Part shown: one piece after another, positions 53,115 through 55,747 of the stretch
Layout: every line of letters begins with the position of its first letter
Numbering within the stretch: the stretch's first letter is position 1
Source: Haliscomenobacter hydrossis DSM 1100
GTDB lineage: Bacteria; Bacteroidota; Bacteroidia; Chitinophagales; Saprospiraceae
Direction of reading: 5' to 3'
Assembly: GCF_000212735.1 (NCBI RefSeq)
Contig: NC_015510.1
Coordinates: forward strand, 3,969,001 to 4,033,000
DNA: 64,000 nucleotides
The notes under the pieces: generated by a model
The model's database searches: none
Seen by the model: the letters and a program-made list of their open reading frames with translations, nothing else
Told to the model about the DNA's origin: nothing
Translations under genes and position numbers: made by a program

Positions 53115-53172
53115 GGGCATCCCTGTGTGGGTGCCCTTACATTGGGCGACCACACAGGGTCGCCCTTACATT
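53113..53172. repeat. Word palindrome of GGGCGACC type filling a convergent gap
   Basis: Two ~30-bp units, each ending GCCCTTACATT, with CCCTGTGTGG opposite CCACACAGGG. The ricT stop (TAG, 53112-53114) and the hit stop (TAA, complement of 53166-53168) both fall at or in the element, so it replaces the entire gap. Confidence 0.75.
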
Positions 53173-53558
53173 TTTCCGGCCACGGCTGTTGCAATACCCG
53201 CCATTTCTTCAGGACTTACCTCTACGGGTGGTTTGGTAAAAGTGATGTCTTGCAGGCTATTGAGCGGAATCAGGTGGATGTGCACGTGCGGCACTTCGAT
53301 TCCGATCACCGCCATACCAATGCGTTTGCAGGGTACCGTAGCTTCCAGGGCTTTGGCGACTTTTTTGGCAAACAAATGCAAGCCCGTCAGTTGCTCATCT
53401 TCCAGGTCAAAGATGTAGTCTACTTCTTTTTTAGGAATGACCAAAGTGTGCCCCACGGCCATGGGACGAATGTCTAAAAAAGCGAAATAATCCTCGGTTT
53501 CTGCAACCTTGTGGCAAGGGATTTCGCCATTGATGATGCGGGTAAATATAGAAGCCAT
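53166..53558 (-). CDS. HIT-family nucleotide hydrolase
   Basis: A 130-residue histidine-triad protein (HinT-like) that hydrolyses nucleoside phosphoramidates or related nucleotides. Seen: SIFTRIINGEIPCHKV at the start, FLDIRPMAVGHTLVIPKKE, and the catalytic triad HVHIHLIP. Length is typical. The last codon and stop come from the adjoining repeat. The start faces greA across an 86-bp gap that is fully repeat. Confidence 0.94.
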   Translation of the reverse strand: MASIFTRIINGEIPCHKVAETEDYFAFLDIRPMAVGHTLVIPKKEVDYIFDLEDEQLTGLHLFAKKVAKALEATVPCKRIGMAVIGIEVPHVHIHLIPLNSLQDITFTKPPVEVSPEEMAGIATAVAGKM

Positions 53559-53646
53559 GTTGTTGATGTGCTAATTTACTGATGTGCTAATGGGTTAATG
53601 TGCTAATCTACATCAGCACATTAACCCAACAGCACATTAACCCATT
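53559..53646. repeat. Word palindrome of TGTGCTAATG type
   Basis: The left part repeats GATGTGCTAA; the 16-bp AATGGGTTAATGTGCT pairs with AGCACATTAACCCATT (53631-53646). It fills the entire greA-hit gap and touches the greA stop codon. Confidence 0.75.
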
Positions 53647-54115
53647 AAATAGAGATATCGACGATTTTGAATTGCATGTCTCCATTAGGCGTTCTTACCG
53701 TAGCGGTTTCGCCGATGGTTTTGCCCAAAAGACCTTGTCCCATGGGAGAACTTACCGAAACCTTTTTGGCTTTGAGGTCAGCTTCCGATTCAGATACCAA
53801 CTGGTAAGTAATTTTGGCTTTATTTTTCGTGTTCATGATGGTCACTTTAGCCAAAACAGTAACTTTTGATGTATCTACCTCACTAGCATCCAATACCCGG
53901 GCATTGGCCAGCTGTTTTTCCAAGTCATTGATGCGCAATTCCAATAAACCTTGTGCCTCTTTTGCTGCATCGTATTCGGCATTTTCAGAAAGGTCTCCTT
54001 TTTCACGCGCCTCGGCAATTGCGCGAGCCGCTTCTGCACGACCCCGTGTTTTCATATCGTCAAGCTCTCCCGTCAATCTTTCAAATCCTTCCTTGGTTAA
54101 ATAGTTGATTGTCAT
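53645..54115 (-). CDS. greA: Transcription elongation factor GreA
   Basis: A 156-residue GreA that rescues backtracked RNA polymerase by stimulating transcript cleavage. ATG 54115 (MTINYLTKEGFERL) is the family start; upstream codons to 54133 are not. The N-terminal coiled coil carries the tip acidic residues in GDLSENAEYDAAKEAQG, and the C-terminal FKBP-like domain has SPMGQGLLGKTIGE. Its 5' leader probably begins near 54386 and holds a strong terminator (54334-54379), so expression may be controlled by attenuation. Confidence 0.95.
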   Translation of the reverse strand: MTINYLTKEGFERLTGELDDMKTRGRAEAARAIAEAREKGDLSENAEYDAAKEAQGLLELRINDLEKQLANARVLDASEVDTSKVTVLAKVTIMNTKNKAKITYQLVSESEADLKAKKVSVSSPMGQGLLGKTIGETATVRTPNGDMQFKIVDISI

Positions 54116-54242
54116 AACACATAAATTTTCCAATGATTAAACGCCTTCCCCAGCCGGGCCTATTTGCCGACCGAATTCCAATTTTCATCCTTGTTGTAAT
54201 GGGAAAATCGCAACTTGGACTACAAGATTTGGGTGGGTTGTG

Positions 54243-54273
54243 AACTGTAACTTTTTTTTGATGGGTTACAGTT
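54243..54273. promoter_or_regulatory. Hairpin in greA leader
   Basis: Perfect 9-bp stem AACTGTAAC / GTTACAGTT with a 13-nt loop. It lies between the leader terminator and the greA start. No T-run follows on the minus strand, so an RNA-structure or processing role is more likely than termination. Confidence 0.45.
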
Positions 54274-54333
54274 TTGCTTGTCATCAAACCGCTGGGGACT
54301 TACAGTCTGCCCAATCTGTGGGTTCCTGCGTAG

Positions 54334-54379
54334 AAAAAAAACAAGAACGCTTCCATCCTGTCCGGATGAAAACGTTCTT
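54334..54379 (-). terminator. Intrinsic terminator in the greA leader
   Basis: On the minus strand AAGAACGTTTTCATCC and GGATGGAAGCGTTCTT form a 16-bp stem (two G-U pairs) around a GGACA loop, followed by G and eight Ts. This is a textbook intrinsic terminator. It starts about 10 nt after the predicted transcription start and lies about 220 nt before greA. Confidence 0.8.
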
Positions 54380-54392
54380 TTGGTTCTTTGTG

Positions 54393-54424
54393 CAAATATA
54401 TAATAAAATAGTCGTAATGCGCAA
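54393..54424 (-). promoter_or_regulatory. Bacteroidota-type promoter upstream of greA
   Basis: On the minus strand TTG (54422-54424), a 21-bp spacer and TATATTTG (54393-54400) match TTG-N17-23-TAnnTTTG. Transcription should begin near 54386-54389 and run straight into the terminator. Confidence 0.65.
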
Positions 54425-54610: not shown

Positions 54611-55747
54611 ATGAAGTACACACCACGTCAATTCAGTTTTGCGCAATACCTGATGCGTCGCGTCGGGTTTTTGCATCAACAAGACATCGATGCTTATTTG
54701 CAGCACTTGCTTTTGGTCAAGGGGCGCTACCATGTTAATCCTAAAGCCAAAAACCCTTTCAAACGCTGGCATTATTCAGCCAAAGCATGTATGGATGCGC
54801 TATTGGCCGAAGTTGAACTCAAAAAATCGCCAAAACAGATTCCTTTGCGTCAACCATCAGGCCCATATTTTTCCGCTACCAGTCTGGCGCGTTATGCTTT
54901 TTGTGTGTCAGCGTTTTCAATTGCTGACGCATTTGAGCAAGGTTCTGCGGTATCCAACGAATGGATCAAACTTGGAGAAAATCTGCACCAAACCCTGCGT
55001 TTGAGCGCACAACATGCCAACTATGGAGAAAATCGAGATCCCTTTTACCGTCGAGCCTGGCAAAACCCAGCCATTGGTAAAATTTTTCGATCTGAACCCA
55101 TTTATATGGGGCATGCGGAGTTGGCAAAGTTGTTTTTCAACGATGAAACCGGTTTTGCGGGTAGTCCTGACTATATTTTTAGAGACAGGGAAGGATTATT
55201 CTTTGTCGTGGAAGAAAAATTCATCCAACAGCGCGATCCCATGAATCCTTCAGCATTAAGGCTGGATAAGGAAGAACTAAAGGGCATTTTGGAAGAAAAA
55301 AATTTGGAAAGGCAACAACAGTGGGAAAAACTGGCCTTTTATTTTTTCGACAACCACATCGTGCAAGTGCTCGCCTATCTGTATAACCTCGTTGAGTATC
55401 CGCTGAGCTACGGTTATCTGGTGTATTGGCTATACGATTTTAAGGATGGCGAACCCTATGTACACAAGGCCGGGGTAAAAAAACTGAGCTTAACCAACGA
55501 GACCATGGCCCTGTATCAGCGCTACCTCAACGAAATGCAAACGTTCAAAGAGCGAGGCAATATTAATTTTGATGTGCTGAAGGTCAATGCAAAAAAGTGT
55601 GCGGCCTGCTCGCTTAGCCCTTACTGTATGCACAAAACCAAACGTTTCCATACTGTGCATTATCCTTATCGGAGTGCCGACTTGCGTGTGTATGCCGCCG
55701 AATTTCCCAGTGTTTTGCGGAGTGAATTGCCCGGAAACGGTTTCTAG
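54611..55747 (+). CDS. Stand-alone Cas4/RecB-like Fe-S nuclease
   Basis: A 378-residue PD-(D/E)XK nuclease. RecB-family residues: His126 (GENLHQTL), Asp187 (GSPD), Glu201-x-Lys203 (VEEK) and QVLAY at 252-256. Cys98 with Cys330, 333 and 339 (CAACSLSPYC) matches the four-cysteine iron-sulfur cluster of Cas4 and AddB-type nucleases. An N-terminal ~85-residue helical segment is extra. No CRISPR array or cas gene is in the window, so it is a solo version, perhaps in repair or defence. It lies between greA (divergent) and murI (converging). Confidence 0.75.
   Translation: MKYTPRQFSFAQYLMRRVGFLHQQDIDAYLQHLLLVKGRYHVNPKAKNPFKRWHYSAKACMDALLAEVELKKSPKQIPLRQPSGPYFSATSLARYAFCVSAFSIADAFEQGSAVSNEWIKLGENLHQTLRLSAQHANYGENRDPFYRRAWQNPAIGKIFRSEPIYMGHAELAKLFFNDETGFAGSPDYIFRDREGLFFVVEEKFIQQRDPMNPSALRLDKEELKGILEEKNLERQQQWEKLAFYFFDNHIVQVLAYLYNLVEYPLSYGYLVYWLYDFKDGEPYVHKAGVKKLSLTNETMALYQRYLNEMQTFKERGNINFDVLKVNAKKCAACSLSPYCMHKTKRFHTVHYPYRSADLRVYAAEFPSVLRSELPGNGF

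Follow-up and report, generated by a model that had tools for sequence, protein, structure and literature searches.

The closest described system to the one considered here is the greA leader of Escherichia coli, in which a promoter, a very short 5' segment of 19 nucleotides (nt), a hairpin, and a T tract precede greA and the upstream gene is divergent. In this leader, the source of the small RNA (sRNA) GraL, catalytically active GreA raises termination in vivo, and both the leader and the stem sequence matter (PMC6829880). Also, Naville and Gautheret (2010) predicted greA/rnk-leader attenuators in Proteobacteria and Firmicutes, a family that ranks seventh among the attenuated gene families, Bacteroidetes not being named in the main text (PMC2965389). 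Among the papers searched, E. coli is the only organism for which GreA autoregulation is shown, and none of these papers describes a greA leader of this kind in Bacteroidota (supplements and most subscription journals were outside the search). Here, we analyze the region ahead of greA in Haliscomenobacter hydrossis DSM 1100, within a stretch of 64,000 nt (contig NC_015510.1, positions 3,969,001 to 4,033,000) referred to as the window, and propose that a promoter followed directly by an intrinsic terminator would act as an attenuator of this gene.

A sequence-only reading of the window had proposed a TTG-N21-TATATTTG promoter followed by a 16-bp stem-loop and eight Ts, and every one of these elements is found on the minus strand, the strand of greA. 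In window coordinates, the features are the following:

54422-54424, minus strand: TTG, the -33 element of a Bacteroidota-type promoter, read directly, with a 21-nt spacer to the -7 box
54393-54400, minus strand: TATATTTG, the -7 element (TAnnTTTG), read directly; it precedes the hairpin in relatives too
54386-54390, minus strand: predicted transcription start, placed by its typical spacing from the -7 box
54343-54379, minus strand: terminator hairpin of 16 pairs with a 5-nt loop (5' arm 54379-54364, 3' arm 54358-54343)
54334-54341, minus strand: eight-T tract of the terminator, read directly, with a single G between the stem and the Ts
54116-54333, minus strand: leader between the terminator and greA, without a consensus promoter box
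53645-54115, minus strand: greA (ATG at 54115; TIGR01462, 173 bits, over the cut-off)

The gap between the TATATTTG box and the hairpin is 13 nt (54393 to 54379), and 218 nt separate the last T of the tract from the greA ATG. On the greA strand, no other box within 500 nt upstream of the gene has five or more of six consensus matches, and with a single consensus promoter before it, greA should depend on read-through of the terminator. The parallel with the E. coli greA leader and GraL, already drawn in the sequence-only reading, is apt, the terminator standing directly behind the promoter in both, and the code used here for the leaders of relatives finds a hairpin 102 nt before the greA ATG in E. 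coli MG1655. However, the hairpin sequence is unrelated to that of GraL (by inspection, and with no Rfam match), the promoter of H. hydrossis is of the Bacteroidota type, and its predicted 5' segment would be shorter still. Moreover, RNA products, dependence on GreA, and action in trans are shown for GraL and are hypothetical for the H. hydrossis leader. With the greA/rnk-leader attenuators it shares a recurrent 5' intrinsic terminator ahead of greA-family genes, but antiterminator structures are reported for that family (PMC2965389), and the H. hydrossis leader offers little room for them. This leader is assigned to the greA-leader attenuator kind and would work like GraL, homology to GraL not being claimed.

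The promoter-terminator layout ahead of greA is neither a product of chance nor a local feature. Terminators and exact TAnnTTTG boxes were scored by one fixed procedure, the layout being defined as an exact box 3-30 nt before a hairpin. In a first sample of 84 greA leaders of relatives, taken from the order and the phylum and with the terminator sought within 350 nt, a terminator is found in 82 and the layout in 48, although, the sampled species being related, the leader counts here and below are not independent events. For two leaders (L006 and L018), the automatic hairpin picks were wrong, and the correct hairpins were seen by inspection. As a control within the same genome, 162 genes whose intergenic DNA measures 60 nt or more were taken from 304 kb of the 8.77 Mb, namely the window and twelve stretches of 20 kb; an upstream terminator is present in 52 of them and the layout in one, which is greA itself. 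Dinucleotide shuffling of greA leaders gives the layout in 1 of 420 cases. A second sample comprised 80 loci chosen by GreA similarity, mostly named Flavobacteriaceae, and among the 76 with full flanks the layout is found in 65 on the greA strand and in one after shuffling, whereas the opposite strand, read over the same 250 nt, has it in none.

In relatives, the promoter spacer from TTG to the -7 box is 19-23 nt and the median distance from box to stem is 12 nt, and the median length of the predicted terminated RNA is 47 nt over 48 leaders. The sequence-only reading had named lack of stem conservation in relatives as a ground for refutation, and this check did not refute it: the layout is kept throughout the order and, with the stem sequence changing, in most of the other Bacteroidota leaders sampled. 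In most leaders from these further families, greA is likewise preceded by a hairpin with a T tract, the stems being quite different and the TAnnTTTG box often unrecognizable. The hairpin end is about 20-35 nt from the ATG in much of the phylum, the spacer being longer in the genus Haliscomenobacter.

The hairpin region has a folding energy of -26.4 kcal/mol, shuffled versions averaging -11.1 (z -6.2), and none of 200 shuffles is as good. When the leader hairpins behind the box were chosen without requiring Ts, the T frequency at the first six positions 3' of the stem is 0.58-0.73 against a background of 0.30. Moreover, a covariance model (R1) built from 41 leader hairpins places the window hairpin first in the whole genome with 45.7 bits, the next place having 26.8 bits. 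In genomes outside the model set, 16 of the 23 best matches are directly upstream of greA, and most of the other seven are located just 3' of stop codons, oriented like the gene ending there. In related genomes, stems of this type also stand at the end of other genes; the type is therefore an ordinary one among the terminators of these bacteria, used here ahead of greA, and for this reason the AACGTTTC stem core was dropped as a candidate greA-specific recognition sequence. Compensatory changes are seen in 15 of 17 stem pairs, but they do not constitute independent evidence, the hairpins having been picked for foldability and, in part, for a shared core, and little weight is given to covariation because of this choice.

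A terminator at this position could also belong to the upstream gene and precede greA by coincidence, and many Saprospirales indeed have, 20-100 nt before the hairpin, the end of a co-directional gene for an outer-membrane protein. For the window this is refuted, the neighbor (54611-55747, plus strand) being divergent and the promoter box lying between it and the hairpin, and in the 63 leaders of the second sample where the upstream neighbor is divergent, the layout is kept in 55; as a general account, we consider it very improbable. A further exact box between the terminator and the ATG is found in only 2 of the 48 leaders, and two tandem hairpin-T units are seen in 19 leaders of the second sample, a further box in none of these. 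Fisher values obtained in this part of the analysis take no account of kinship among the species and are too small. Because the layout persists with a divergent neighbor and almost no other box occurs before the ATG, the element belongs to greA and not to the neighbor. Another explanation would be a stand-alone sRNA gene, where the product is the RNA of about 50 nt acting on other mRNAs and greA is transcribed from a separate promoter. An sRNA gene is indeed built of a promoter plus a terminator, and GraL acts in trans as well (PMC6829880). However, the 5' tail and the loop, where a seed would be expected, are not conserved among the leaders of relatives, the element stays with greA although the neighbors change, and the window has no separate greA promoter box, the ATG being only 20-35 nt 3' of the terminator in most other leaders. 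This explanation is thus unlikely, and a trans-acting role of the short RNA in H. hydrossis is rather doubtful as well.

The two remaining explanations accept the hairpin as part of the greA leader and differ in what it would do. As a 5' stem-loop, it would protect or tune the greA mRNA without stopping transcription; the hairpin starts within about 10 nt of the predicted 5' end, and mRNA-stabilizing stem-loops can sit that close to a 5' end. Nonetheless, Ts are enriched 3' of the stem even though they were not selected for, stems of this type end other genes in related genomes, and hairpin-T units occur in tandem in the 19 leaders mentioned above, which makes such a role improbable. A riboswitch sensing a metabolite or a tRNA, or a leader-peptide attenuator, would have a leader terminator as its output stage, but a search against Rfam 15 gives nothing between 54334 and 54424 at E values up to 1 (the hits elsewhere are sub-threshold, spurious, and to microRNA models), and a median of 12 nt between box and stem leaves no room ahead of the hairpin for a sensor or a peptide, so there is hardly any likelihood of such a system here.

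A promoter-proximal attenuator of greA is probably the best explanation overall, the stretch from the terminator to greA being free of other consensus promoters and the layout persisting with a divergent neighbor; the attenuation suggested in the sequence-only reading is supported on these grounds and by the conservation of the layout. Attenuation of greA as such is highly likely. Polymerase would start near 54388, make about 8-12 nt of RNA, and reach a complete intrinsic terminator, where most transcripts would end near 54334 as an RNA of about 50-55 nt, whereas the fraction reading through would give the greA mRNA, the short RNA being a by-product. The control point would then be the efficiency of termination at a bare terminator. 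With no more than about 8-12 nt of RNA ahead of the stem, there is little room for a sensor, a leader peptide, or an upstream antiterminator; weak pairing of AAAGAAC in the 5' tail with either the T tract or the 3' arm is conceivable, no systematic search for antiterminators having been made. Because a sensor or antiterminator domain hardly fits, the leader would probably respond to the condition of the elongating polymerase, with GreA as the likely signal.

Given attenuation, negative feedback by GreA, as in E. coli, is the preferred reading of its purpose, though a tentative one drawn by analogy. More active GreA would raise termination in the greA leader and thereby lower greA expression, possibly because GreA-stimulated cleavage returns backtracked polymerase to the T tract and gives the hairpin more chances to act. 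The GreA encoded in the window has the acidic loop GDLSENAEY, which is needed for autoregulation of the GraL type, yet is not sufficient. Some points weigh against the attenuator and its feedback. A non-consensus promoter within the 218-nt greA leader is possible, and in L025 the order seems inverted, with a TATCTTTG box below the hairpin, so that greA may escape the terminator there. Also, in the Saprospirales with a co-directional upstream gene, the hairpin may double as the terminator of that gene, and even in E. coli GreA autoregulation is not reproduced in vitro.

Taken as an attenuator, this leader points to a brake on greA that is conserved widely and resembles that of E. coli, and greA levels in Bacteroidota may be set by termination and not by the promoter alone. 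The conservation of the layout argues for selection on position rather than on stem sequence. A more speculative possibility is that a terminator directly behind the promoter is a near-universal, perhaps ancestral, control of greA in bacteria, in which polymerase itself would gauge the supply of GreA at a bare terminator without a sensor RNA, the layout being kept while the stem sequence turns over. The shared layout across Bacteroidota with unrelated stems offers many natural replicates, and the very short leaders in organisms such as Flavobacterium are well suited to tests of feedback.

The sequence-only reading took greA as the only gene downstream of the element; in fact, a co-directional gene (53558-53166) comes after it. 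The genes on either side of greA and its leader are the following:

53166-53558, minus strand: HIT-family gene, co-directional, located after greA and a palindromic repeat, named from its sequence
54611-55747, plus strand: divergent neighbor gene of 378 amino acids, with a homologue at the corresponding position in L003 and L004

The palindromic repeat between greA and the HIT-family gene (window 53567-53640) contains TGTGCTAATG units, and its relatives are found at about a dozen further places in the H. hydrossis genome. In the greA leaders with tandem hairpin-T units, these lie between the greA promoter and the ATG, mostly in Flavobacteriaceae (L206, L207, L210, L213, L216, L218, L222, L224, L228, and others). 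Within the greA leader of the window, a second hairpin without a T tract (AACTGTAAC...GTTACAGTT, 54243-54273, minus strand) is present 3' of the terminator, and a similar one is seen in L003 and L004. These two, which come from sister species, also carry a palindromic element of about 92 bp, resembling a miniature inverted-repeat transposable element, inserted between the terminator and the greA ATG, and dozens of copies of this element are present in each of the three genomes searched, that of H. hydrossis included.
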